Shown: one piece after another, positions 1,634 through 62,700 of the stretch
How the letters are laid out: the number at the start of each line of letters is the position of its first letter
Position numbering within the stretch: position 1 is the stretch's first letter
Source of the DNA: Tetraselmis striata
Lineage: Eukaryota > Chlorophyta > Chlorodendrophyceae > Chlorodendrales > Chlorodendraceae
Length of the DNA stretch: 64,000 nucleotides
Direction: 5' to 3'
NCBI GenBank assembly: GCA_006384855.1
Contig: VCJN01003488.1
Span: 1 to 64,000 of the forward strand
Notes under the pieces: generated by a model
Seen by the model: only the letters and a program-made list of their open reading frames with translations
Told to the model about the DNA's origin: nothing
Databases searched by the model: none
Made by a program: the position numbers and the translations under genes

Positions 1634-4600
1634 GTGGCGCACGTGGCGGACGGCGCAGCCATGGCGGTGCTGGAAAGCGGCGAGGTGTCCGCGGGCCCCG
1701 GCGGCGGCATGCCGCCCCTGGCCACCGGCGACGAGCGCAAGGGCAAGAAGGTGGTGGTCGTGCGGCGTGCAGGAAGCACCTCCTCCTCCGCTGTGGGCAC
1801 GCCGCGTGGGGGCGCCTCCCCCACGCCCCCCGCTGCCACTTTGCCTGCCGGCAAGACCGTCAGCGGCGCCGAGCGGCTGGAGCGAAAGCGGGCAGCGGGC
1901 CGGCTGCGGCGTCACGATGTGCTTGGTGGGGTGGGCGCTTTCGAGGCAGAGCTGGCGGCCTCTGCGCCCCCACCCTCTCCGCCAGCTGAACCGCTCAACA
2001 GGCATACCTATGACCTGGGGCGCATGCCGCCAGAGGTTGTGGAGGCTGCCATGATTGCTCCGGACAATGGCGTCGCGGTGATAAATGCGTTTGAGACGCT
2101 GCTCGCTTCGCGGTGGAGTGGCCCTCCCCTTCCTCCCTGCCCCCCTCTCACAATTTACTGCGTAGCTCTATCCACACGCAGTCCCAGAGTATAGCCATTG
2201 CTTGCCTACAAAATCCTTGCCATGTCATGGCTGGATGCGGCTCTTGCTCGCTGCTCATGACACAGTGCACGGCATCTATCTATCTATCCACACTATCTCT
2301 CAAACATACCCCCCCCCCCCCCGCTGTGTCTTTGTGATGGCGCCACTACAGGGCGGGCATGACAACGCGCGCAACGCAGATGCGCACCACGCGGCAGGGC
2401 GCCGGGACGGCCGACCTGTATGGGACTCGCACATGGGGCAACAACTACCCTGAGGGCCACCCCACCGGGAGGCTGATGGAAGAGCGGCGTGTGCGGGCTC
2501 TGGCGCGCTGGGAGGAGACGCAGCGCGCTTGGGCAGCAAATGAGGAGGCGCTGGTGGCAACGACCGGGCAGCCAGCGAGCTCGCTGGCGATGTCCAAGCA
2601 TCGCGCCGTGGAGTACCGCACGGCGCTGCAAACCAAGACGCAGCTCATGAAGGCGGTGCCGCTGGCGGATAAGGGGCTCGGGCCTGCACAGTGGGCCATG
2701 AGTCTGCGCGATGGATGGACGCGCTACGTGCAGATTGGCAATGTCTTTAGCGGCCTCTTTGTACACATTGAGGAGCGGCCTGCCGATGCTCCGGGCGCTA
2801 ACCTGCGCCCCATTGAGATGGTGCAGCAGCTCGACCTTGACCGCCCAGGTGCGCCTCTTTCATCGCCTAAGTAACCCCTGCAGTCGTTCTCACCTTGGTT
2901 TAATCACGCTCCTAAGTCAGCTTCCATCTAAATCAAGCTGAGCCTCACTGTGCTAGGCGTCCATAAAGCAACTCCTGTTGCTATGATCGCAGCCCTTCTG
3001 GCTCATTCTTTACATAACTGGTAGTCGGCACCGTCCTTGGGCGCCGGTTGTCTGTGCCCGGAGCAGCACGATGCGTGTAGGACACTGAGTCAGCCTCTCC
3101 CGCGTTTACTCTTGATAAATGCTATTGCCATCTGCAGAACTCGCTTGCTTGCTTGTCACATGGGACCTTGACATGTCCGCCCCGCCACTCGATGCTCTGC
3201 CACTTTCAGGCACCCCATCTGCCAGCATGTCTACTCGCGCAAAACTGGACACACTACGCGATGTGTCCCTTACGGCCCGTGGGCGCGCGTGGGCCCAGGG
3301 CGGTTACCTCAAGTACCGCAAGAAGCTGTACGCACAGAACCTCAAGGTAGGCCCCATCTTTTCACTAGAGTTGTCTTCAATTGACCCCCCCCCCCCACCC
3401 CCCCCCACCCACCTACCCACACATTGCCCTTTAGCCTGCTGTGGCTGGGTCACTGAAAGCATCAACCCATCGCATGCCTCTTGCAGCTGGTGGTGCCCCA
3501 AGAGCCGGAGTTTGGCGAGCTGCACGTCAAGGGCGTCGGCGTGGAACAGGCGATGTGGGAGCGTGCAAATGCAGCGGTCACAATTCAGGATGTAGAGGAT
3601 CAGCTGGCGCGTGAAGATCCCGAAGCACTGGCGTCGCTGCAGGTGCTCCCCCCCCCCTCCCCCCCCCCGCTCCCATCCCCTTCTTTCCATCTCCGTGAGT
3701 GTTGGTGGCATCGCTGCATCAATATTAAAAAAACGCAGGAACAAAGGAAAGGGGGGTGCTGAGAGGTGCGCCTTGGTGGCTACAATAGAGCGCGCGGGCA
3801 GAGGAGGAGGCGCGCCTGCAAGCAGAGGAGGAGGCGCGGCGGCAGGCGCTGATTGACCTGATGGAGAAGGACAAGTCACGCCCACGGGAGGTTCGTTTGG
3901 TCCAGCCCTGGCGCGTTCCTGCAGCATTTGTCTTGTACTGGCAAAGCTCGATATCCACCTAGGAAGGCATGCCACGTTGTGCTGTCTTGACGAGCTTCGG
4001 CAATGCGGCAGGGCCCGTCTGTTTTTATTGCGGAACCACGGCTGGTGATGGTGGCGGAAGCGGGCGAGGTCAGCCGCGCCTCGCTTTGCGTGCAAAACAA
4101 CGGAAGCACTGCGCTATCCTACACATGGAGCGGCAAGATGCGCGACCTACCGAAGAACGCCAAGTGACCCCCCCCCCCCCCCCCCCCCCCTTCCAGGAGA
4201 CATGCTGCCAGCGCTTCTGCTATCTTGACAGTGAGCTCACCTTCTGAGCTGACTTTATGCTGTCCGTCCCAGGGCTGGCGGCACTTATGACGTGGAGCGA
4301 CTTTACCTCAGCGACCAGTCGGGCGTCCTCCTCCCGCGGCAGGTAGGCCCCATCGACGCCCACAAGAGCCACTGTGCATGCATGCCGGAACCGCTGCAGG
4401 ACGCCATATTCATGCTTGTGTGCGCAGATGTCCTTCCTCATGCCGCGACACACCTTTTTGCCTTAAGACAATGCTGCCCTATCTGCATGACGGCGCAGGT
4501 TAAGTACTTTGACTTCACCTTCAAGAGTGACCAACCCGGAATCTATGAGGCCAAGTGGTCGTTGGCCACGCATCCGCAGCTGCCCAACCCTCCGGGACCT

Positions 4601-9445: not shown

Positions 9446-10351
9446 TCACCAGGAAGACGGCCTCGACGGCCTCGATGGCATTGATGGCCTCGATAACCCA
9501 AATATCTTGCTCCCCTCATGCTTGGGCAAGGCCTCCTGCAGGAAGTGACAGTACTTGCACTGGGGGCCCGCCGTCGGGCCGCACCGCCCGTCCGTCCCAG
9601 GGATGTCGTACCTCCCTCCACAGTACAGGTAGTCGTGGCCGCTGAGCCCATACCAGTCGCCCCCGGGCTTCACTTCGTGCCCACGGGCATTGAAAACCTT
9701 GGTGTCCCTGCAGGCTTGGCATTGCGGGCCGTGGTTGGGGCCGCACACGCCATTGCTTCCGGGTATAGCTCGCTCCCCAAGCCGGCGGCCGCAGTAGAGT
9801 TTTGCCTGGCAGTGAGAGTCGACCCCGAGCTTCACCGGGGCGCCATTAGAATTTAGCGGCGACTCGCAGTCGAAGCTGCTGCCGGCGCTGCTGTCCTCCT
9901 TATTCTGGAGCGCATGCAGCAGGAGCCGGACGTGTTGCTGTGCGTGCTGCTCCATGTGTTTGGCGTGGTCCACTGCTGCGTGCTCTCCCTGATGGCATCC
10001 GGGGATGTCGCACTTCCGCATGCAGAAGCGGCACGACTCCTGCACGTGCTTGTCGACGGTGCCCAGCGTGAGCGCCTCGCGGCAGCGCGGGTGGCTCTCG
10101 CACCTCAGGGGGAGGTTCTCCAGCTGGGCCCGGAGGACATGGTGAAGCGGGCGGAAGTCGGAGCGAGAACAGTCCTTCAGGCAGTGCGGGCAGGATCGGT
10201 TAGAATCCAGCCAGCGATGCACGCAGGGGCGGCAGTAGGCTGTCTCGCATGCGCCGTGCTCGACGGCGTTCACGACAACGCCGTGGCAGATTTCGCAGAG
10301 AAAATGGCGCGGCACCTCGGCCGCGAAGCGTTTTGGGTCCAGAGAACACAT
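9446..10351 (-). CDS. RING/TRAF-type zinc-finger protein with CGPxxGPQC repeats, copy 1
   Basis: Intronless, 301 codons. Order of parts: an N-terminal RING-like finger (CEICHGVV ... CRPC ... CPHC), a Cys/His-rich TRAF-type segment (LRCESHPRCREAL, HVQESC, GCHQGEH, HAKHMEQH), and two C-terminal repeats of the form Tyr-Cys-Gly-Arg ... CGPxxGPQCxxC. The architecture suggests an E3 ubiquitin ligase or signalling adaptor. The position of the usual RING His (Cys-Gly-His-x-x-Cys) reads Cys-Glu-Thr-Ala-Tyr-Cys, so zinc binding at that site may be altered. The start at 10351 matches the start of copy 2, and an in-frame stop lies upstream in this copy. The last 20 residues (Ser/Arg/Pro-rich) are not shared with copy 2. 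Confidence 0.78.
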   Translation of the reverse strand: MCSLDPKRFAAEVPRHFLCEICHGVVVNAVEHGACETAYCRPCVHRWLDSNRSCPHCLKDCSRSDFRPLHHVLRAQLENLPLRCESHPRCREALTLGTVDKHVQESCRFCMRKCDIPGCHQGEHAAVDHAKHMEQHAQQHVRLLLHALQNKEDSSAGSSFDCESPLNSNGAPVKLGVDSHCQAKLYCGRRLGERAIPGSNGVCGPNHGPQCQACRDTKVFNARGHEVKPGGDWYGLSGHDYLYCGGRYDIPGTDGRCGPTAGPQCKYCHFLQEALPKHEGSKIFGLSRPSMPSRPSRPSSW

Positions 10352-10490
10352 GCTGCGAAGGGGGGCGGCGAGAAAGGTGCGAGAACTCGGGGCAGGGCTA
10401 CACGGCGGTTTTGCAGAGACAAGATCGGTGCTGTCGTCCGTGGGTCTTCAAGCTAGGTCTGTTCTGCCGACCAGCTGCACTACGTGTAGA

Positions 10491-14022: not shown

Positions 14023-15200
14023 CATGCAACGTTTCCCCCACGCGTTTGTATTCCGGCAAGTCCAGCCAAAAGGCAAGGCAAGCGACTGGGAATATAGAGA
14101 AGATTACTGGAAACAACATCAATGCCGAAATACACACCGAAAGGGCCAAAATAGCATAACTTGGGCGGGCATAAATGGGGAAGATCAACGTGTAGTTCAC
14201 CAAAGTCATCAACCGCAGTTAATAGGCCGTCAAACTGCGTCATGCCCCAAGGGATGTAGTTGTGGCCTAGGCGGGCGAGAGGCAGAAGTTGAGGGCAGGG
14301 TATGATGAACACAGGAAGGGTACCCACACCACCCCAACTAAGTCGGGAGACAAAAACATATCAAGCTCGGCATTTAAAAATAAATGCAGACCCCCCCGGA
14401 CAAAGACGAGAACCTTGTGGGCGAACACCACCGGATACGGACGAGAATGAGTCCGGAACCCATCAGACTGCGCAGGGGCGCCGGAAGAAAATATCTAAGA
14501 TCAGGATTCCTGTACGGGGATTCGGATCATTTAAACGGGGACAAATCACGGCAGCTAATAAGGCATCTATCGAGCGCTGTCCGAAGCAGATTGTATTTAT
14601 TTTCGGAATTACGGAAATCTCCGGTTTCGGCAGAAAGAGATTGCACGGGTTATTCAGACGTTGGCTCCATCAAGAGAAAATCGCCCGGAGAAATACCTGC
14701 ACATACCTTGTCACCGGACTGCGGAGGGCGCCCAACCCGGAATTAATACAATTTTCCGTTAACTGTTGAGGTTACAAGATTTTAGTGCAAAGTTTTCGGG
14801 CAACATCATACGGACTGGAAAATATTGGCCAAAGTGCATGCCACAAGGGGTAAGCCCGGATTACAAAAACGATCGCCGCATGGCGGGAACAAGGATCGCA
14901 AAGTACAATGACCACGACATGCTACAATGTGACTTCATATCGCATGTATAAGCGACTAATATAATATCGCTAATCCTTATATGGAGTTCCCTTTTCCCGC
15001 CCTCTGGACAGGACTGGCAACAGTGAAACCCTTGCGTGTCTCTACGACGGCCGTTTGGGCAGCGATCCAGTCACGGAAAGCCCTGGGTAGGCGACGCTCC
15101 GTTATAGTCATCAAGCAAATTGCCGAAGCATTCTGCAAGACTGATTGAAGGCCAGTGACAGAATTTCCAACACTGTTGGATCACTGTCTAAAACACTGCC
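13021..15200. other. centre of the inverted duplication; repeats and retroelement-like debris
   Basis: No gene is supported. The minus-strand open frame at 13725-14327 and the overlapping plus frames at 14302-14951 have no recognised domain; they may be gag-side debris of the adjacent Ty3-type element. Two short (CCCA)n and (TA)n-type simple repeats are present. Confidence 0.4.
13906..14020. repeat. (TA)n and (CATA)n microsatellite
   Basis: A run of TA dinucleotides (about 13,908-13,979) passes directly into a CATA tetranucleotide run (about 13,981-14,019). The TA part is self-complementary and can extrude as a cruciform. Confidence 0.92.
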
Positions 15201-15620
15201 ATGAAAATACCCGGCACTGACCACGAACGGTCCGCCCGCCCTATCCGTTTGGGCGTCTTTATTTTGGTTTATGTATTATGGTCACGCGAGCACTGCGCGC
15301 ATCGCGCGCCGCAGAGCTCAGCACGGCCCGCCTGGCACGCAGGGCTACGAGTTCACATTATCTCCGCCCGCGTATTTCCGCCCGACTTCTATCCGCCCGA
15401 CTTCTATCCGCAGATGCCGCGGTCGGGGCTGGGCAGTGCTTGTCGCGTCGTCTCCACCTTTCGAAGCAAGCTGCATCGCTTTCTTCTGCCTGCGCAGCTG
15501 GTGGACAGAATATACCAGGCTGGCAGACCCACCGACCACAGTACCGCTCTCGTCGCGACACATCCGCCGTGTAGTCTTGCCCCGAGTGCTGCTACCTTTC
15601 TCTCCGTCCGCCTTCGCAGC

Positions 15621-16490
15621 ATGAGTTTCCTGGACCCAGAACGCTTCACGGCCGAGGTACCGCGCCATCTTATCTGCGAAATCTGCCACGGCGTTGTCAT
15701 GAACGCCGTCGAGCACGGCGCATGCGATACAGCCTACTGCCGCCCCTGCGTGCATCGCTGGCTGGAGTCGAACCGGTCGTGCCCGCATTGCCGGAAGAAC
15801 TGCTCTCGCTCCGACTTCCGCCCGCTTCACCGCGTCCTCCGGGCCCAGCTGGAGAACCTCCCCCTGAGGTGCGAGAGCCACCCGCGCTGCCGCGAGACCC
15901 TTACCCTGGGCACCGTCGACAAGCACGTGCAGGAGTCGTGCCGCTTTCGCATGCGGAAGTGCGACATCCCCGGATGCCATCAGGGAGAGTACGCAGCAGT
16001 GGACCACGCCAAACACATGGAGGAGCACGCACAGCAACACGTCCGGCTCCTGCTGCATGCGCTCCAGACCAAAGAGGACAGCAGCTCCCGCAGCGGCTTC
16101 GACTGCGAGTCGCCGCTAAACTCTGATGGCGCCCCGGTGAAGCTCGGGGTCGACTCTCACTGCCAGGCAAAACTCTACTGCGGCCGCCGGCTTGGGGAGC
16201 GAGCTATACCCGGCAGCAATGGCAAGTGCGGCCCCAACCACGGCCCGCAATGCCAAGCCTGCAGGGACACCAAGGTTTTCAATGCCCGTGGGCACGAAGT
16301 GAAGCCCGGGGGCGACTGGCATGGGCTCAGCGGCCACGACTACCTGTACTGTGGAGGGAGGTACGATATCCCGGGGACAGACGGGCGGTGCGGCCCGACG
16401 GCGGGCCCCCAGTGCAAGTACTGCCATTTCCTGCAGGAGGCCTTGCCCAAGCACAAGGGCAGCAGGCTGGCGCGGGGGACCCGCGGGTGA
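15621..16490 (+). CDS. RING/TRAF-type zinc-finger protein with CGPxxGPQC repeats, copy 2
   Basis: Paralogue of the gene at 9446-10351, intronless, 289 codons from the Met that aligns with the copy 1 start. The frame is open back to 15201, but copy 1 has an in-frame stop in the matching leader, so the longer N-terminus is doubtful. The parts are the same: a RING-like finger with Cys-Asp-Thr-Ala-Tyr-Cys in place of the usual His site, a TRAF-type Cys/His segment, and two YCGR ... CGPxxGPQC repeats. Homology with copy 1 ends just after LPKHKGSR, and the last residues differ. A GGTGAGG donor-like site at the stop leaves open a spliced read into the 2OG gene 260 bases downstream; there is no comparable site in copy 1. 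Confidence 0.78.
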   Translation: MSFLDPERFTAEVPRHLICEICHGVVMNAVEHGACDTAYCRPCVHRWLESNRSCPHCRKNCSRSDFRPLHRVLRAQLENLPLRCESHPRCRETLTLGTVDKHVQESCRFRMRKCDIPGCHQGEYAAVDHAKHMEEHAQQHVRLLLHALQTKEDSSSRSGFDCESPLNSDGAPVKLGVDSHCQAKLYCGRRLGERAIPGSNGKCGPNHGPQCQACRDTKVFNARGHEVKPGGDWHGLSGHDYLYCGGRYDIPGTDGRCGPTAGPQCKYCHFLQEALPKHKGSRLARGTRG

Positions 16491-29243: not shown

Positions 29244-31310
29244 TCACCGCTGTTTCATGCTCTGGGTGCGCCGATGCAGGCTGAGCTTCATATTGTTGTG
29301 GCGCACGTCAGGGCTTTCGACTGCGTCATCGCGCCGCGACTGGAAGCGTGGGACGGAGTTTATGGCGCGGGTGAGCACTGGCCGTGGGCTGAGCGGGTTG
29401 TGTGCAGATGTGGTTGCACCGCTGCTCGGGGTATCTGTCGTGGAGAAGCGCCGGTGGGAGCTCATCCGCCGCAGCGCTGCCGAGCCAGCCAGCACAGCCG
29501 ACCTCATCACTGAGCGCAGCTTCTGCGCCAGCGTGTTAGCCATGTTGGCCAGCGCGCCGCTGAGCACCGCGTTCTGGGTGCCTGTGAACCACGGGTGCGC
29601 GAGTACCTGCGCAGCCGTTAGCCGTTTGCTGGTATCTGGCTCCAGTAGGCCGTGCAGCAGCGCCTTGGCCTCGGGCGACACGCTGGCCCACACAGCGTCG
29701 TCCATCGAGAAGCTGGCCGCACGGATGAGGTTGAACAGCTCTGGCTCGCTGTCGCTCATGAAGGGCGGGTACCCGGCCAGCAGGATGTGGAGGACCACGC
29801 CCGCGCTCCACATGTCCACCGGTGGCCCGTACGGGTTTACGCCCGCCTGCCTTGCTGCAGTCAGCACCTCTGGCGCAACGTAGATCGGCGTACCGACCAC
29901 AGACGTGGAAAGCTCGGGGATGTCCACGTGCTTGGCCATCCCGAAGTCAATCAGCTGCACTGAGGTGACATCACCGGGCTCCTTCAGCATTAAGTTCTCC
30001 AGCTTGATGTCCCGGTGCACGATGCCCTTCGCATGAATGTGCGCCAATGCGAGCGCCAGCTTCTCAAAGCATGCCTGCGGAAACCAGCACATTTCCAAAG
30101 TGTGAAAGGGAGGCAGAGTTTCAGCGGTAGGGTAATGAGAGGCATGCAATTGCGAGGCATGCATGCGCTGGGCGGAACCCACCCGTGCGTCCTGCTCGGT
30201 GTACGTTCCCCGGTTGACCAACGACTGCAGCAGCTCGCCGCCCGGCAACAGCTCTGACACAATGTACATCTTGCCCCCCTCCTCGAATGCAGCCTCCACC
30301 TTCATGATCGCCTCATGGCTCAACTTCCGCAGGATGGCGAGCTCTCGCTTGGCGATCACCAGCGATGCCTTGCCACCCGGCCCTGTGTTCATGATTTTTA
30401 CTGCAAACTTCGCCTTGGTCTCTCTGTTTGTGGCCAGCTTCACTGTGGAGAACGCGCCGCGCCCCAAAGTCTGCCCAACCTGTGATCACCCCGCCAGCAA
30501 GCCAGAAGCGCATTCTTAAAAACGGAACACGCAGTTCAGAGCATGACCTAGACAGGAGTACACTTTGAGTTCCGCCCCTCTGAAGTATGAACAGTTAGGG
30601 CGGGCAACCCAATTGCTCTGCCCACTGTTGCCTCATTTTTATAAAGAGTTCAAGGTCGAGCCAGGCCCGCGCACCTTGAAGCGCTGCCGAAACTCGCCAC
30701 CCTTAGATGACGGCGACACATAGCTGACGCCACGAACGCCGCGGGTGCCCTTGGCATCCTCCAGCAGCTGCTCGTGCGTGCGCCCCGTTACCGAGCATGC
30801 CTCCTGTAGCACCGGCGCGGCCAGGGCGGGCCTGGTTGTACCCACGCCAGAGTCTGGAGGCGGCGCTACCACAGCTCCGTCCGGCGCCTTCGCCAAGGCG
30901 GTAGGCGTCATTTCTTTGGCGCTGTCGCCGGCTTGGAGTCGCAACCGGCCTTGCATGCCAGTGCCACTCCCAGGTGCGCCACCGTCGGAGCTCGGGCACG
31001 GCGTAGACCCGGCGGCCGCTTCGCCCCCCACCTGCGCTTGCGACTCTCGAACCTCATCACGCAGCGCGTGCACTTGCCCACAACCCGACCCTTCAGATTT
31101 GTCTTCCGAATTTCCCCCAGATTCATGAGTTTGAGCGGCACCCCAAACCGGACCGTCGACAGGTTGAGCGGACGAGCCCGGGGGTGCATTCGTATCTGAT
31201 TTTTCGTGCGTTCCTCCTCCCGGCGCGCTGCCGGCAGGTGCAGCACGATGGGCGCCCCCCTGCGTTGGGGACACCCGCCAGCATCCGCCTGTGCTGCAGC
31301 TGGCGCCCAT
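29244..31310 (-). CDS. CaMK/CDPK-like Ser/Thr protein kinase with N-terminal myristoylation signal, 3 exons
   Basis: Exons 31310-30675, 30479-30183 and 30074-29244 join in frame. The chosen start gives MGASCSTGGC, which fits an N-myristoylation site (Gly2, Ser/Thr6) with nearby cysteines for palmitoylation, so membrane attachment is likely. A roughly 200-residue low-complexity region follows, then a complete kinase domain. Glycine loop LGRGAFSTVK, Lys in FAVKIMN, catalytic HRDIKLENLML, DFG in LIDFGMAK, APE in YVAPEVL, and VDMWSAGVVLHILLAGYPPF are all present. After the kinase domain comes a helical, basic segment (MANTLAQKLRSVMRSAVLAG) like the autoinhibitory junction of CDPKs, but no EF hands follow. 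The family is CaMK/CDPK-related; whether it is calcium/calmodulin-regulated is inference. Confidence 0.88.
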
Positions 31311-52615: not shown

Positions 52616-53374
52616 ATTGCACTTGTACGCAATCCTTTCATGCTGAAGGGGTGGCCGTTTCTTTTGATTGCACTGGTAGAACTGTTGTCAGCAATGGCAT
52701 ACTTTGGCGCAACACTACCATTGCCCAAGACGGGAGAGAAGGAGGAGAGCACTTTGCTGATGGTGTAGCCACCATTCCATTCCACGTGAACGTGCGCGCT
52801 TCTGTTGGTGGGTAGGCATGCGTATATATCGACTTGAGACCACCATGGCACCGGTGTATATTGCTCGGTGGCCATGGGGTATTGAATTTCACTGTACGCA
52901 ATCCTTTCATGCTGAAGGGGTGGCCGTTTCTTTTGATTGCACTGGTAGAACTGTTGTCAGCAATGGCATACTTTGGCGCAACACTACCATTGCCCAAGAC
53001 GGGAGAGAAGGAGGAGAGCACTTTGCTGATGGTGTAGCCACCATTCCATTCCACGTGAACGTGCTCGCTTCTGTCGGTGGGTAGGCATGCGTATATATCG
53101 ACTTGAGACCACCATGGCACCGGTGTATATTGCTCGGTGGCCATGGGGTATTGAATTGCACTTGTACGCAATCCTTTCATGCTGAAGGGGTGGCCGTTTC
53201 TTTTGATTGCACTGGTAGAACTGTTGTCAGCAATGGCATACTTTGGCGCCGCACTACCATTGCCCAAGACGGGAGAGAAGGAGAGCACTTTGCTGATGGT
53301 GTAGCCACCACCCATTCCACGTGAACGTGCGCGCTTCTGTCGGTGGGTAGGCATGCGTATATATCGACTTGAGA
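52616..53374. repeat. tandem repeat, about 2.8 copies of a 269-270 bp unit
   Basis: The GCAATCCTTTCATGCTGAAG block recurs at 52629, 52898 and 53168 (periods 269 and 270). Copies are almost identical except small indels, and the third ends within CGACTTGAGAC. Each unit carries GCGTATATATCGACTTGAGA. The units are open on several frames on both strands, but the period is not a multiple of three across all copies, so a conserved protein repeat is unlikely. Confidence 0.93.
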
Positions 53375-54642
53375 CGCGTGAGTTTGAGCCCTGACAGTGC
53401 ACGCTCCCGTCGCGGTGCATGGCGTTCTCATGAGCGTGTGCCATTAATGCGGATGTTGTGATTTGCCCAATCGTCAAACCGCTTTCCAAGGGGCACGATG
53501 AGCGGCATTGGCTATTGCGCCCCGCCACATATTGAGTGCTTTTTTATTGTGCAGGTGCATGCTTGCACCGCCCACACCGCAGGATGCTGAGTAACATGGG
53601 TTTGCCCTTGCACCAATACCTCCGAAACCATTGCGCGAGTCTAGACACATGTATGAAACATGTCGCCCAAGGCGCAAACCAAAATGGCGACCAAGTGTAC
53701 ATGGCATGTTGTTGGTTTTGATACCAGAAAATGGGGCAGTGACGTTGACAGCTAATGACAGTTTGCCATTGTTATCAAAATGTATATGTCTGAGACTAGT
53801 AATTAAAAGCGCTCTTGGGCTGCAGCCAGGCACCCCCATTGGCGTCGGGTGATGCCCTTTCAGAACCCCCAGGCCTTCGGGCTGGGCGTGTTTAACCATA
53901 CCATACCATAAAAAGCGCTGCGTGCAGGATTTCACGTGCTAGTCTCAGATTTTCATCCTGATGAATACACAACGGCGAGTTGTCATCAGTGAAATTTCTG
54001 CTTACTTTCGACAAGGCGACCTGCCAGATTGCGCATTAATTCGTATGCCGCCCGCTAGCTGACCAAATACCGCACACCACGTGCCGAGCAGCGAGGTAGG
54101 AGCTGCTCACTCGTGTAATTCTGCCTTGACCTTGCGGTGAAGAACAACTTCCTTTTGATCAAAATATTGGCGTGGCAGGTGCTCCAACCGACTACTAGAG
54201 ACCTGTCATACAGTCTATGTTACATGGATGTCGCCATATAACATGGGCTATGTGCTCGCCACATACACGTTGCATAGCCCCCGCACAATTACACATTTTA
54301 TCTCGAGTTTGCACTCGATGGCTGCAACGGCATAAATCATGCGCGGGTTTTCCGACTCAGTAAGCGAACCAATCAAATTTACACCCATAAAAATTATGCA
54401 AAGACGTTTTGCGGAGAAATGTACATCGACACGCCCTCAGGTTGCATCGCACTACTGCCTGTCTGTCTGTAGAACAATGCAGACGCACTGTACGCAGACG
54501 AGGGAGCAGCGCGGCTCAGTTGACGTCAACTTCTCACTGATGACCCTTGTAAAGCTCCGCGATGACATCCACTTGGGAGCCAATCATGCGGGAGAGCGAG
54601 GTGAGTAGTTATTGCTGCCGATTATAAGATTATATGCTGCCG
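53375..54642. other. intergenic, no gene recognised
   Basis: A minus-strand open frame at 53,474-53,935 has no convincing family match. The rest is unassigned. The region lies 3' of the PhyH-TPR-JmjC gene. Confidence 0.4.
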
Positions 54643-57600
54643 TCACCGTGGGCGGAGGTGCCCCTGGCCGCTATGGAACACCTCGTACGGCACCGCCATA
54701 TGCTCCGCCGGCAGCGGCTCGCGGATGTCGGGCTCCTCGAACTCGTAGCTCTCCAGCACTTCGGACAGCTGCCGCATCGCCGGGTTGCGCAGGCTGCTGA
54801 AGCGCAGCTCCCGGAGCACGCCGGGCAGGTTGGAGTCGTCGATGAAGTTGCCAGACACCGCCACGGTGTCCGTCAGATTCTCCACGTAATGCGGCGTGCC
54901 TGGTGGGGGCCGGGGCAGGGAGAGGAAGGGGGGGGGGGGGGGGGGCGAGCCTCAGAAAGCAGGATAAACAGAATGTAATGGGTTCACAAACATACCCAAA
55001 GTAATTAATTGAATTCGCGGGTCAAAAATATTTAGTGAATGGGAGCACACCGTTCAGCTGGAGCTTGCATGGTATATTCTGACATATTTCCAAATAATCA
55101 TAGTCATCCTCTCTTCTTGCCCCGGGGGGGGGGGGGGGGGGGGGGGGGCAATGTAGATAGACAGATATATAGATATGCACATATAGTTTAACCCTAAGCG
55201 TATAAATCAAATACATACAAATATATGTATCATGTATCTATGTATTTATGTATGTATCACATATATGTGTCATATATGTGTCATACGTATCATATATGTG
55301 TATCACATACATACAGGCATAGATATTTTAATCATACATCATTGTATTTATGTATTTTAATCATATTTATGTATGTATCACATATATGTGTCATATATGT
55401 GTCATATGTATCATATATGTATATGCACATGCGATTACGGTGCCGAGCAGGAGGGCTGTGTGGGCTTTTACCCGCAGGGACAAACAGCACTTCCCCTGCC
55501 CTCAGAATGCACTCGCGCCTGCGGGCAGACCCCGCTAGCGGCTTGCTCTCGTCGCGCAGCATGTTGTCGAGCGGCTGGAAGGATGGGTCCAGCTGGCCGC
55601 GCACCCACGTGGGGTACAGTAGCGGGATGTCATCGGGGTGGAAGAACACCCAGCGCTTGGCGCCGTGCATCATGATCATCCAGAAGTTGGTGTGCAGCTG
55701 GTCCACGTGCAGTGCGCTTCGGGAGCCCTCCGGCCCGATGAAGAGCGTCGGCCATGAGTCGCGGTTGGGCGTGTCGGGCGGCGTGCGCTGCGCGGCGGCA
55801 TCGGGGATCCACAGAGTCAGCAGCTGAAAGAGGCACTCTAGCGAGCTAATGCCAGCAGCCGGTAGCAGTAGGTGTTGCATGGTTGCAGCGGCCGACGGAT
55901 AGGTCTGAGGTAGATTGAGGGCTTTACACGGCGCATCCTGCTATACGATCTTCATAATAGTTTCCTCCCTCGTCGCGTTTCATAGCAAAATTGCATTATG
56001 TGTTGCTCAACGTAACCATGCTTTGGGTCTGCCATATGTTGTTGTTCTTGACCGCCGCGCAAAAAGAGAAAACCACATAGTCCGGAAAATAGCACGGAAT
56101 CTATCACTCCATGGTGCAGTATAATTCACTGCTTTCGTCGGCGCATACACCCCCTTCATGTTACGGGATGTGTATCGTGGTTTTGCTTGTGATTAAGTGG
56201 CTCCTACATGTGCTGAATAAACAGGAATCATTACAGCTCAATTGTGCTTGCACTGGCATCCATTCGCACCGGGAGACAAGGAGGTGGGCGCCTGACAATG
56301 GCAGCGCTATACCTGGAGGTAGTCATGCGCAAAGTACTTGGGAATAGACATGTAGCTGAGCATCTCGCGCAGGTGGATGGGCAGAGACACGTCGAACAGG
56401 TAGAGCTGCCGCTTGTCCACGCCGCCATCGCCGCCGCCCCGCAGCAGCGCCACAAACTCCGCGATGGTCATCAGGCCGTGCGACTCGAGCGACGCCCAGC
56501 TGAGCGAGTCCGCCACGCAGCGCGAGCAGTGCACCAGTTTGCCCCCAAAGGTGGCCGTCAGCCAGTCCAGCGTCCACGGCTCCTCGCACAGCACGTCGCC
56601 CATACCTGCACACACAGGCGGCCGGGAGGTTGTGAGAGGCATCGGCATCTAACCATCATGTGACGAGGCGATCCCTTCCCTAATATGAAAGGCAATGACA
56701 TGGATGCATTTGACCCAAACAATCGCCATCGGCTCTATACAAGTACATTATCCACGAATGCCCTCCCGAGTATCACACTATGGTTGGCGTGCGCTTATTT
56801 CACAGCATGGTCGCCATTGAACTGTAGGCAATTACCAGTAGCTCTACAATACTGGCAGATTGCGCCATTAACAGTGCCGATGCTGTACAGTAAACACATC
56901 CCAATACCAGGTGGATGCGGAGCCCCGAAGTCTTGTTATCGCCCTAGTGTGAACACATGAGAGACAGCGGGGACTCAGAGCCATTTGCCGTCCTGACGGC
57001 GCCATCCAATCCTCTACCCAAGACAGCTTTGGGCATGGTTCTCAAACAACCATGGAACGCTGAGTGGCGCAGGGCTATCTCACAATGACATGGGCGACAT
57101 CAACCTGCCTGTTGCAGCCGATGGCATTGGCGTGGCAGCAGCAACGATTGTTGGCATGGTGTCACGAGTAATGTGAACTGGGCATGTGACAGTCATGGTC
57201 GGATGACAAATTGTCAGGACAACCAGTCTCATCCCTGTGCTGGTCAGCGGTCAGATAACATGATTTTTATAGCGACATGTGTCATGCCACTTTTGTCGTT
57301 CAACTCGTAATCATACATAATCATGTACTCTTATTAATGACACTGTTGCCTATTCAAACAGATATAACAAGGCAAGTGCCATCGCCCCTCCCCCCCCCCC
57401 CCCCCCTCCTCTGACATGGCCCTCGCGCGTACCTGTGATGATGACAGGCTGGCCAGCGCGGGCGTAGCGCTCCCGGAACTCAGCCACTGAGAGCTCCGCC
57501 ACGTCGCGCCGTTCCAGGTCCTGCACGGCCGCGGGGACCGTGGGGCCGGTGCCGAGGGTTACGGCGCGCTCCTCGCGCGCCTGCTGCGCTGCCAACTCGC

Positions 57601-59757
57601 GGCGCAGGCGCTCCCGGTGGTACTCCTCCTGCACGCCCACGCCCCCCTCCGCCTGCAGGGCCCGCTCCCAGCACGCCAGCGCCCTGCGGCGGCGGTGCCT
57701 AGCTGTCAGGCAACGCTTTGCACAACATGGGAACGGCGCAGGTGGGGGCACATGCCGCTCAAGGAAGAGATCGGGGTAAGAGGATTGGGGGAGTGGGAGG
57801 ACGGCGCGGGAACCTCCTCCTTGTAAGAATGGAGGACCTGAAAGCATCTACACGGAACACAAAACGAGGGAAGGGAATGCGCACCCCCTCATTTGCAATC
57901 ATGGAACAGTAAATGGGGGACTCAAGGGGGGGGGGGGGGGGGGGGGGGGGGGGGAGGGGTCTTCTCCTACAATAATGCACAGATCGAGGACTGGAGCAAG
58001 ACTGAACCCAGGAATGATGTGGGACGGGGGGCTCTGGCTCAGTGCAACCATCCACAATGGGTCTGCCCCATGTCGTTCTCCATGAACGGGCGATGGGGAT
58101 ATGAGGGGGCGCACTCCGCGTAATCTTCCAGGATCTCGTAAAGGTAGGCCATCTGCACGAGGCCCGGCACGCCCGCGCTGCGCCCCCCATCCAGGACCCC
58201 CAGGGCCGCCCTCGCGCGCGCCAGTGCCTCCGGCGAGCGGCGCACCGCGTCCAGCGCTGCCTGTGAGCGCTGGCAGCCTCCCGCTGTGCTGCCCTCACCC
58301 TCACCCAGCAGCGTGCTGATGACTTCCCAGATGTGCTTCGGAGGCGACGCGGGGGCAGCCAGAGCATCTGGGCCCTCCTGGGCGCCCGGCAGGGATGCCT
58401 TGCCAGCGGCATCGGCCTGACATGTCGGAGGCGGCGGCAGAAAGTCCGCGAGCGTGTACATGCCTTTGAGCTCCGGCAGCAGGTGGTACGTGAAGCCGTC
58501 GGGCAGCGCCGCCTGGTGCTTGGTCTGGAAGGAGAAGTGGAACAGCAGCCGGTCGCGCCCCGAGGCGTTCTCCCCCGCGCAGTGCATCACACGCGTGTCC
58601 ATCAGCACCGCGTCCCCCGCGGCCACCACCATCTCCGCTGGCGGGTTGTTCACGTAGTACTCGTCCACCGGGCCCAGCATACGCGGCTTGTAGAACTCGC
58701 AGAAGTAGCCTGTGTGCGTGCCGGCCCAGATGAGCGTGGGGCCCATCGAGGCGTCGACGTCCTGCCAGCGTGGGAGCTGATTTAATTGCTATTGGTTTCG
58801 GAGCGTTGTGTCTTAAAGTCCTAATAATAGCAAATGTGGGGAACACACAATATGACCGCGATATGATACGACATGATACCGGAAACAAAAAACTATTAAG
58901 CACAGTATTCGCAGTTGAAAGTAAGATTTAACTCCATTTCATAGACTTATAGATGATATGCATGTCGATAGTGCCCTCGAAGAGCCTTGCGAGAAAACAC
59001 AACGCGTACACATAATAGCACTAGATACGCAGAAACCCATACCAATAAATATTATAATCACTTCCATATACAGGTCGTAAGTTCACTGACAGTCATCAAA
59101 GGAACAAAGGGACTCACCTGCAGCGCCACAAATGTGGTGAAAACCTCCTGCGCGCCCTCCACGTACGTCACGTCCGAGTGCGCCACCTGCCGCGGCGCGC
59201 CCGGGTGCGACGCCATCACGCCCAGCTCCACCAGCTCCGCCTCGGCTGGCAGCCGCTGGCCATACACCGCCGCGTGCGAGGCGACCGCGCTGCGCAGCAG
59301 CCCGGCCGTGAGATCGTCCATGCCCAGCCGCAGGTCGCGCCGATTCTGGGGGCGGCAGACAGAATGTTGCGTTCAGAAGTCCGTCGGGCCTATGCGTGCC
59401 GGAGGGGCCACGGGAATCTTCCACACTGGTCGCCACTCGCGGCCTCGGCGTCTCGCGGCAATCGACGCTGCGCCCCGCACCCTTCCCCCCAGTCACAGCC
59501 AGGGGACTGCACGGCGGGTGCGTGGTTCAGCTCTCAACCTGCGGCGTCTGTATCTTGCTGAAGGCGCCGGCCTCGCCCGTCTCCGCCGCCGCCGTCACCC
59601 GCCGCAGCAGCTCCGCGCGGGCGGCTGCCGCTTCCTCGCGCCGCAGCGCGCCAGGCAGCACCGCGAACCCATCGTCCTCCAGCGAGTCCAGCAGCCCGCC
59701 GGCGTCGATGGCCAATACTCGTGGCGTCGGGGAGACTCCCACGCCTGGTGGCTCCAT
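54643..59757 (-). CDS. PhyH-TPR-JmjC fusion: two 2OG-Fe(II) oxygenase domains in one protein, 7 exons, 748 aa
   Basis: Exons are 59757-59539, 59345-59118, 58761-58115, 57683-57433, 56605-56313, 55823-55472 and 54899-54643; all are GT..AG with consistent phase. The first three exons give a phytanoyl-CoA dioxygenase (PhyH) domain: DGFAVLPGAL, iron HxD in AHSDVTY, and a distal His and Arg in VMHCAGENASGRDRLLFHF. Exon 3 ends MAYLYEILEDYAE, and exon 4 continues ALACWERALQAE, so the junction rebuilds a TPR helix pair. Exons 4-7 give a JmjC domain of the JMJD6/cupin_8 type: GQPVIITG, SIPKYFAHDYLQ, LFIGPEGSRSALHVDQLHTN with iron HxD, and a distal His in TPHYVENLTDTVAVSGNF. Both iron triads look complete. 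Substrates are unknown. A longer start at 59979 would add a hydrophobic segment. The alternative is two genes, with the PhyH part ending at a stop at 58039. Confidence 0.75.
55205..55435. repeat. intronic duplication of TATG/ATATGTGTCA-rich sequence
   Basis: A segment of about 60 bases starting TTTATGTATGTATCACATAT near 55,244 recurs near 55,364 almost unchanged, inside the intron between the last two exons of the PhyH-TPR-JmjC gene. The same intron has a poly-G run at 55,123-55,148. Confidence 0.8.
57928..57954. repeat. poly-G tract in the PhyH/JmjC joining intron
   Basis: A run of about 25 G on the plus strand (poly-C on the coding strand) lies within the 431-base intron that joins the PhyH and JmjC halves. 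Such runs are common in introns of this window and can be a source of assembly error. Confidence 0.85.
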
Positions 59758-62700
59758 CACGTGCTGGCTACGGGCCTGAGAGTGACGGTCGAGACTCGAG
59801 CAGAGACGAGTTGCCGTTACCTTGACAGGAGCGTGTTGTGATGTGGACGAAGTAGTGGCGGCGCTGGTATAAATAATAAGAGCAATATTAACAAATATTA
59901 TCCGCCCTGCTGCTACAGGTATCCCATGCTGTGCTCCTATTTTCGATCTGCTCCGTTTCCTGTCCTTGTCTGAAGTCATTTCGCGACGATTGATTTAAAA
60001 ATATACATACATGCAGGATATTTAATCGCTTACCGGTAAACCGACAAAAATAGGACCTATGTTAGTCGCAGCTAAGAAATGATAAATCGACTACAAGTAG
60101 TAATGATATATATACTGTAATAATTATTACTATACTATTATTATGTGTTTTACGTATGTATGCTGTACGTTTTCATGGCGGTCGCTACATATTTTTTTTC
60201 TTAATATATAGTACTATATCATAAATGCAGTAGCGACGACCTACAATATGTAAATAATCATTATATGTATTATTTTCATTGTTATCGATATTATTCGTAA
60301 TTAAATTGTTATTATATTATTAAAATATACTTGTGCGAGGTGACGCTTCCCCAGCTCCACCTAGGGGTGACGATGAAATGCGGAAACAGCGATGTATTGC
60401 GACTTCCTCCAGCTGGGTCATTATTTGTTGTATTCGTTACATAGCTGATTATTTATACCAACCACGACGGCGCGGCGGCTCGTCGTATGCACCTGCACGT
60501 GGCGGCGTACTGGCGACCCTGCTGTTTTTTTTCCAGGAGCTGCCAAAGCAGCAGGCCCTCATTGGTTTCGGAGCCACGTCCAGTTCATCAGGCAAGGCAT
60601 AGCTTATTTATTCTGAATCATTCATCACCGCACCAGCGGAGAAGTATCGAAATGATTATCCTTAGTGTTTAGTAATCCTTAGGCGATACGATATGTGATA
60701 GTTTTCGCACCGCGCAGTATAACCGACCAATAAAACATATTGCTCATATGATGACACGACTGCGAGCAATGTTGATTATATATATATTCGTCATAGATGA
60801 ACACACGGACGGAGGTGTCTCAGCAATTTTAGATACAATCATATGCTACATGCAGCTTATGACTATATGTGATGATGTGCAGCTGCGTGACACCCGCTCC
60901 AAAGAATCCATCATTAAAAGCAAATATACAATTATGCAAACAATGTGGATTATTAAGGCTTCTTCAGAGGAATGTAATACAGTTACTGAAGCAGTGACTG
61001 GCTAAAGCTGTCATCAGCCACTGACAGCAGGAGATTATTACTATTATTTCTTAATATTGCCGCTGCTAAATCTATGCCGCCACAAATGGCACAGCCACCC
61101 TCGAGATCATATGATCATGTCATCATGCACATGTATGCCACCCTCAGGTAGCCATCGGCGGCATGGGCGTAGTTATTCTTGCTCATATCATCATCCGCAG
61201 ATGCCATCGAAAGTCAAACTTACCGCCAATTATTTTGCTTTGTTGTTGATCTCCAGTAGGCGCTTGCTCAAGCTGTGCGACTTTGCCAGCTATAAAGGCT
61301 GAATCAGTGCATACCACAAGTGGGGTTCTGTGGTGTGTAGTCACTGGGCGGGTATCGATATGGCTGTGTGGACGACGTTGGTACTGGCAGTGGCATGTAG
61401 CAATAGCAATACGCATCAAGAGCAGCGCTACGGCACCACTGAGGAGGAGCCGTGCCAACGCTGTTCAACGTGATCTGATATGATTACCTGACAAACGATC
61501 ATCATGCCGCCTTTAGAATATTGGGGAAGTGACAGACGTACAACGCATTACAAGCCTGTTGGAGGCCAAGCTCTTACAATAATGATGAAACATTATTATG
61601 ATGTACGTACTAGTCCCGCTATTCAGATATTATTACAATTATTTACTGCTTCTGCAGATGCAACTATACGCCCCGAGAGGTGCGATATTATGCCTAACTC
61701 CAGCCTTCGGAATGCAGCTCGTGCCTTGAACCCATTGACATCGCACCATTGGCAGCATCACAAAATGTTCAAAATGTGCAGCTACTCACGGGACTGCCGG
61801 GACAACTCCGTGCGCTATGCTTGACACATGTCCGCCAGCACGCACGGAGGTGGAAGTTTTTGTGAACTAACATGGTCGTGATGCATAGGCTCATGGCCGT
61901 CTCTTAGCGTGGTCGTGATGCAGGGATTCGGATCATCGGATCTCCTGCGAGCATTGTCTCCTACCCGCCAGAAGCATGCCCGTAGTTTTTGAAGTGAGGC
62001 GGGATGGAGGACACGCAAGCGTTGGACATCCCTAGTCGAACAGCGCAGCTTACGGTCGCCATAACACAAAACCGAGCATTATCCGGCATTCAGCAAGGAC
62101 ATAGCTGGGCAGCTTGTAACGGCTAAATATGAAGAAGGTGCCCCAAATAATGACCCGTGATTGATGTAGGTAACGATACGGTGAGGCAGATGTCATATCA
62201 AAGCAGAAGAAAGCAAGGGTATATTGAAAAGGATGAAGACAAAGTACGAAGAAGGCATGAAATGCAGAGAAACGACTTCCATCAAATAAAGGCACCGAAT
62301 TTATCTACATCTATTCGCCACAAAGCCCATCTATTAATACAATACTATTAATACAGCGGCAATAAGGCAGCGGCAAAAAGGTAGTGACACTATTAATACA
62401 GCAACACACATTAGGCTACACTACATTCTCCACACAATCCGGCTGGTAAAGAAAGCAACCGTACACCCAGCCGCGAAGTCCCACAAACGCCCAATAAAGA
62501 GAAGCAGCCGTACACTTCCCCGCGAAATTCTACACTTTGCCACGAATCTGCAGCAAGGGTTCGGATGTAAGTCTCCTCGTGCCCTGCCTAGGGTTGTGAC
62601 TAAGGTGTGACACCTAGCTGATCATGTGCCCTATCCGGGTTCCCAAACATGGCATGAATAAACCCTGTCTTAAGCCCTATCTATCAGCAGGTAGGTGTTG

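Follow-up and report, generated by a model that had tools for sequence, protein, structure and literature searches.

A predicted Tetraselmis striata protein joining a PhyH-type and a JMJD6-like oxygenase domain through a splice-made TPR-like helix pair

A seven-exon gene predicted to encode two oxygenase domains

The window analyzed here is a stretch of 64,000 nucleotides, positions 1 to 64,000 of contig VCJN01003488.1 from the green alga Tetraselmis striata (assembly GCA_006384855.1), and the gene under study lies on its minus strand, read from 59757 to 54643. The sequence supports one gene for one polypeptide, in which two different 2-oxoglutarate (2OG)-Fe(II) oxygenase domains, one of the PhyH type and one of the JmjC type, both retain their metal sites and are predicted to be joined by a helix pair that resembles a tetratricopeptide repeat (TPR) and is made by splicing. 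Rebuilding the gene gave seven exons in phase, encoding 748 residues and a stop codon (749 codons) with no internal stop codons; a first-pass annotation made from the letters of the sequence had proposed the same seven exons in consistent phase, and all of its coordinates were reproduced exactly. Exon 1 (59539–59757) opens with the start codon at 59757 and encodes residues 1–73, exon 2 (59118–59345) encodes residues 74–149, and exon 3 (58115–58761) runs from residue 150 to the first two bases of codon 365. Exon 4 (57433–57683) supplies the last base of that codon and continues to part of codon 449, exon 5 (56313–56605) extends to residue 546, exon 6 (55472–55823) starts at residue 547, and exon 7 (54643–54899) carries the C-terminus and the stop codon. 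Introns 1 to 6 are all of the GT-AG type and measure 193, 356, 431, 827, 489 and 572 nt, respectively. This range (193–827 nt) is compatible with the intron medians of 198–343 nt given for core-Reinhardtinia in an excerpt of PMC8226300.

The G+C content at third codon positions was 0.85–0.91 across all seven exons. Because most of the gene itself had served to train the first codon model, the analysis of codon usage was repeated with a second model trained on other genes, i.e., the first 300 codons of a protein kinase open reading frame (ORF) in the window, 229 codons of the JMJD6 exon on contig C187 and 273 codons of the PhyH ORF on contig C1640; the end of the kinase ORF and the first 100 codons of the C1640 ORF were left out of the training. 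In both models, the remaining five introns of the gene served as background, with intron 3 excluded. Under the other-gene training, which applies to the codon log-odds below unless stated otherwise, all seven exons showed coding-like codon usage, with a value of +0.80 per codon for exon 1. An in-frame ATG at 59979 was considered as the true start and rejected, with log-odds of –0.94 in the model trained mostly on the gene itself and –0.62 per codon in the other. No stop codon lies between this ATG and the start of the gene (59758–59979), and the 74 codons of this stretch look non-coding. The ATGs at 60012, 60008 and 59927, also upstream of the gene, may open upstream ORFs. Downstream, a candidate poly(A) signal, TGTAA, is located on the minus strand at 54379–54383, 260 nt past the final stop codon, and is the first such motif there; TGTAA serves as a poly(A) signal in green algae. 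The codon bias, this motif and the intron lengths are compatible with a green alga.

Both halves carry a complete set of predicted iron ligands

The first-pass annotation had proposed a domain search of the 748-residue product, and this search placed PhyH, Cupin_8 and JmjC all above their Pfam cut-offs. The PhyH domain (residues 27–220, exons 1–3, 58549–59679) matched PF05721 with 63 bits against a gathering cut-off of 22 (E = 6.1e-17), over profile positions 2–211 of 213, and a separate PhyH match at 58549–58761 was returned by a profile search of the genome's contigs. H129 and D131, from an H-S-D motif in exon 2 (59180–59172), and H209 in exon 3 align with the iron ligands of PHYH (2a1x). 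Exon 3 also encodes R220 (H209 and R220, 58584–58549), which lies 11 residues past H209; this is the same spacing as that of PHYH's Arg from the distal His, an Arg that presumably binds 2OG, and R220 is kept in the C1640 paralogue. The near-full profile match and the aligned HxD...H motif are features shared with the PhyH family (PHYH, PHYHD1). Unlike those proteins, the PhyH half sits in a chain with two oxygenases, and it has no significant similarity to solved members of the family.

The second half matched Cupin_8 (PF13621; residues 432–682, exons 4–7, 54844–57484) with 70 bits against a cut-off of 27.4 (E = 4e-19) and, over residues 573–682, JmjC (PF02373) with 38.9 bits against a cut-off of 24 (E = 1.4e-9); the profile search of the genome's contigs gave a separate Cupin_8 match at 55470–55766. 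The JmjC half starts in exon 4, exon 5 encodes the N-terminal portion of the Cupin_8 region, which is JMJD6-like, exon 6 encodes the JmjC core with H585-V-D587 (55709–55701), M595 and K602, and exon 7 provides the distal His, H667 (54891–54889). The PDB sequence closest to residues 414–692 was that of JMJD6 (E = 4.8e-20), followed by JMJD5/KDM8 (1.5e-9), C2orf60 (1.5e-6) and FIH (3.6e-5). H585, D587 and H667, together with K602, align with the iron ligands and the 2OG lysine of JMJD6. An iron site of the HxD...H type in each half, as the first-pass annotation had claimed, is thereby borne out by H129/D131/H209 with R220 in the one and by H585/D587/H667 with K602 in the other.

Compared to JMJD6, a lysyl-5-hydroxylase, the JmjC half keeps the HxD...H motif and the 2OG lysine, whereas its position behind a PhyH domain, Met595 in place of Asn and T-P-H in place of W-W-H set it apart. 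A gene on contig C187 (positions 1129–2238 of extract L028) matches human JMJD6 at E = 2.6e-79, as against 4.8e-20 for the fused JmjC half. Because the C187 gene is, by similarity, the genome's JMJD6 orthologue, the fused JmjC half is, judged in the same way, a diverged JMJD6-like relative and not a JMJD6 orthologue. The C187 gene has a long poly-Ser stretch after its JmjC domain, as human JMJD6 carries a poly-Ser stretch, whereas the fusion protein is without one. JMJD6 hydroxylates lysines in Arg/Ser-rich regions, according to an excerpt of PMC4233403.

The TPR-like helix pair arises at the predicted splice junction

The two halves are joined across intron 3 (57684–58114, minus strand), which begins with the donor GTGCGC, ends with the acceptor CCGCCGCCGCAG and has, from 57709, a branch-like CTGAC motif. 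The junction reproduced exactly the one in the first-pass annotation (donor after 58115, acceptor before 57683), and the protein across it reads ...MAYLYEILEDYAE|ALACWERALQAE... The TPR-like repeat spans residues 350–376 (57650–58161, interrupted by intron 3); helix A is encoded in exon 3, while helix B and a charged helix are encoded in exon 4. The joined sequence matched six TPR families, the best at E = 6.4e-5 and all below cut-off. The read-through version ending at the stop codon at 58039 matched no Pfam family. The version that begins at ATG 57847 gave no TPR family either, its single match being DUF4663 at E = 0.16. We compared 70 GT-AG joins, with donors from 58250 to 58039 and acceptors from 57990 to 57561, in which both frames are kept open. 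The join 58114/57684 alone fits seven of the eight TPR signature classes, and three joins fit six. The claim that splicing makes one TPR-like helix pair holds insofar as the match arises solely in the joined sequence and is the best of the 70 joins; what is made is a single repeat below threshold. In the Pfam search of the protein there was a single matched stretch, and no tandem TPR array of the kind that provides a binding groove was seen. One helix pair would be enough for spacing the domains or for adding surface to a partner site, not for a TPR groove, and the partner-binding 'hinge' that had been suggested is speculative for this one sub-threshold repeat.

Codon usage changes at the same junction. 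The last 25 codons of exon 3 and the first 25 of exon 4 scored +0.63 and +1.23 per codon, respectively, whereas the 24 codons past the donor scored –0.27. A value of –0.42 was obtained for the 55 codons between ATG 57847 and the acceptor, and the model trained mostly on the gene showed the same pattern. The spliced model reached 359.9 bits, compared to 330.4 bits for a two-gene model. In this alternative, two adjacent genes on the same strand, or one bicistronic mRNA, would encode a 389-residue PhyH protein that stops at 58039, followed by a JmjC protein translated from ATG 57847, with intron 3 left unspliced. It deserves serious weight because bicistronic mRNAs with similar spacing occur in green algae: both ORFs are open, and their 191-nt spacing on the same strand compares with a median of 183 nt at the bicistronic loci of Chlamydomonas reinhardtii (excerpt of PMC11291117). 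Unlike those loci, the present one has a long ORF1 (1170 nt, against a median of 357 nt in that paper), splice signals that join the frames, and 20 ATGs between the first start codon and 57847, where the same paper reports start-codon depletion before ORF2. The private parts of both ORFs are also non-coding by codon usage, ATG 57847 is followed by C whereas the first start codon is followed by G, and the TPR would be split over two proteins. No TGTAA was found between the stop codon at 58039 and 57684; this is a weak test because two further TGTAA motifs lie inside intron 5 (56235 and 55928). Weighing these observations, we regard two genes or a bicistronic mRNA as improbable.

Several observations weigh against a single fused gene with working oxygenase domains. 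The in-frame ATG at 57847 allows a separate JmjC ORF; the first-pass annotation had named a separate JmjC start as the case against its model, and such an ATG does exist in the frame of exon 4; the stretch from it to the acceptor, however, is the non-coding one described above. The TPR is a single repeat that falls below the Pfam cut-offs, at 19.4–23.1 bits against 27.8 for TPR_1 and 20–23.2 bits against 27 for TPR_2. Codon usage ranks the chosen join second of the 70, since the same donor with an acceptor at 57699 scores 361.3 bits against 359.9; it therefore settles the donor, not the acceptor, and the TPR fit favours 57684. The 57699 form would separate the TPR helices by five inserted residues (HRRRR). 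In the PhyH half, the phmmer alignment with PHYH sets R218, not R220, opposite PHYH's Arg, whereas the spacing and the paralogue alignment favour R220, and no significant match was obtained among sequences of solved structures (best SnoN at E = 0.11, human PHYH at 0.34). In the JmjC half, Met595 takes the place of an Asn that is kept in JMJD6 and in each of the four comparators of alignment A1, and T-P-H stands where these four have W-W-H; the pocket, or even the activity, may therefore differ. The fusion model rests on genomic sequence. The domains, the splice-made TPR match and the codon usage agree with the one predicted protein of the first-pass annotation, and from sequence the pairing of two oxygenases in one protein looks real. 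We consider a single fused gene very probable.

Relatives of the two halves

The fusion is single-copy in its own genome (224 Mb, 2903 contigs): seven of the ten matches were its own exons, and the other three were on C1640 (PhyH half, 35%, 4.5e-20), C187 (JmjC half, 38%, 1.3e-14) and C21 (JmjC half, 36%, 1.1e-4). In a separate alignment, the C187 gene was 33% identical to the JmjC half over 205 residues. At least 23 PhyH matches were found on 20 contigs and at least 27 Cupin_8 matches on 23, with the window's own contig, C2808, alone on both lists; the nearest paralogues of the PhyH and JmjC halves are found elsewhere, on C1640 and C187, respectively. By Pfam, the open frame on C1640 contains PhyH only and ends soon after the domain, and no Cupin_8 was matched on that contig in the genome profile search. 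We infer that two genes for 2OG oxygenases fused to give the present one.

Outside this genome, no relative was confirmed among viral contigs (searched with the whole protein, JmjC alignment A2 and PhyH alignment A3), prokaryote genome contigs (whole protein and alignment A2) or phages, and NCBIfam gave no family at E 0.1. Three plasmid records matched, all three with the JmjC half only. The viral and prokaryote-genome scans, unlike that of phages, are seeded by a handful of short peptide patterns and are at their best with close relatives. The same domain order did not turn up in the viral, prokaryote-genome, phage or plasmid collections, which hold no eukaryote genomes, and the scans therefore say little on how far the fusion has spread. 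One of the plasmids, from Nostoc (NZ_CP117772.1, L017), carries an ORF with Condensation and TauD domains (227–2770) followed by a Cupin_8/JmjC ORF (2965–3603). As in the algal protein, two kinds of 2OG oxygenase are found side by side, and the JmjC ORF resembles the JmjC half (E = 1e-17); it differs in that the ORFs are separate, TauD takes the place of PhyH and the setting is peptide-synthetase-like.

These results bear on the possibility of a recent, lineage-specific chance fusion without function, e.g., a decaying locus. The single copy and the failure to find the same domain order in the scanned collections, which hold no eukaryote genomes as such, are what such an event would leave, whereas 748 codons without a stop, coding-like codon usage in all seven exons, complete iron triads and the joining of the halves by an intron are not expected of it, and we judge it very improbable. 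No paper on a PhyH-TPR-JmjC protein was found among the matches listed from open-licence PMC papers, in agreement with the first-pass annotation, which knew of no described family with this architecture. As far as these searches reach, the protein is a new arrangement of known domains.

Comparison with multi-domain oxygenases and a proposed function

A TPR region and a 2OG oxygenase domain share one chain in KDM6 (excerpt of PMC4233403), and the algal protein is similar to such TPR-bearing 2OG oxygenases (KDM6A/UTX) in this respect; it differs in having one sub-threshold repeat placed between two different oxygenases. AspH and the leprecan prolyl 3-hydroxylases are further TPR-bearing 2OG oxygenases. 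A second comparison is provided by proteins with two barrels such as Tpa1/OGFOD1, in which the two double-stranded beta-helix domains of the chain are alike and the second is presumably inactive. The algal protein likewise has two double-stranded beta-helix domains in one chain, but these belong to two different families and both triads are intact.

In the mechanism that we propose, a single nuclear gene would give rise to an N-terminal PhyH-type oxygenase, a short helical linker with one TPR-like repeat and, at the C-terminal end, a JmjC hydroxylase of the JMJD6-like kind. JMJD6 performs lysyl hydroxylation, and the JmjC half would hydroxylate a protein side chain, most likely in the manner of JMJD6. 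The PhyH half would oxidise either another substrate, probably a small molecule or one of the acyl type, or the same client. The linker would fix both sites in one chain, and it is proposed that they would therefore share one local supply of 2OG, Fe(II) and O2. Sequential or coordinated hydroxylation, as the first-pass annotation had suggested, is possible on this arrangement.

How far the proposal can be carried depends on whether both sites work. A single fused gene in which one or both of the oxygenase domains work is likely. Should the gene be a single fused one, activity of both sites is somewhat favoured, and if both are active, the JmjC half would, with comparable confidence, be a protein hydroxylase. 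In a competing explanation, one domain of the fused protein would be a catalytically dead scaffold, e.g., the JmjC half with Met595 and T-P-H, leaving a single oxygenase with a binding module. The departures of the JmjC half from the JMJD6 pattern point in this direction, and two-barrel 2OG proteins with one inactive barrel do exist, as noted above for Tpa1/OGFOD1; on the other side, neither half has lost any of its three iron ligands, and the JmjC half retains its 2OG Lys and the PhyH half a suitably placed Arg. We rate a dead domain as rather unlikely. The full proposal is a bifunctional PhyH and JMJD6-like enzyme with a helical linker, representing a new green-algal family, that would either couple two oxidations of a single client or sense one common O2, 2OG and iron state on behalf of two substrates; taken as a whole, it is speculative and has to be called unlikely.

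The 2OG oxygenases are responsive to oxygen, iron and central metabolism, and few clues that two activities serve the same process are better than the fusion of their domains. Conservation of this fusion would link protein hydroxylation of the JMJD6-like kind with a PhyH-type oxidation and offer a direct way to seek the substrates of both, whereas a fusion restricted to one species would be a minor curiosity.

Other features of the window

Just downstream of the gene, at 52616–53375, a 269-bp unit is repeated 2.8 times with 97% matches. The repeat overlaps a minus-strand ORF (52641–53543) that has no Pfam family at E 0.01. The kinase ORF from which codons were taken for training lies on the minus strand at 29247–30485 (Pfam Pkinase, 214.6 bits). 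Two RING-finger-like ORFs, at 15192–16487 on the plus strand and 9449–10447 on the minus strand, gave C3HC4 matches just under the Pfam cut-offs.

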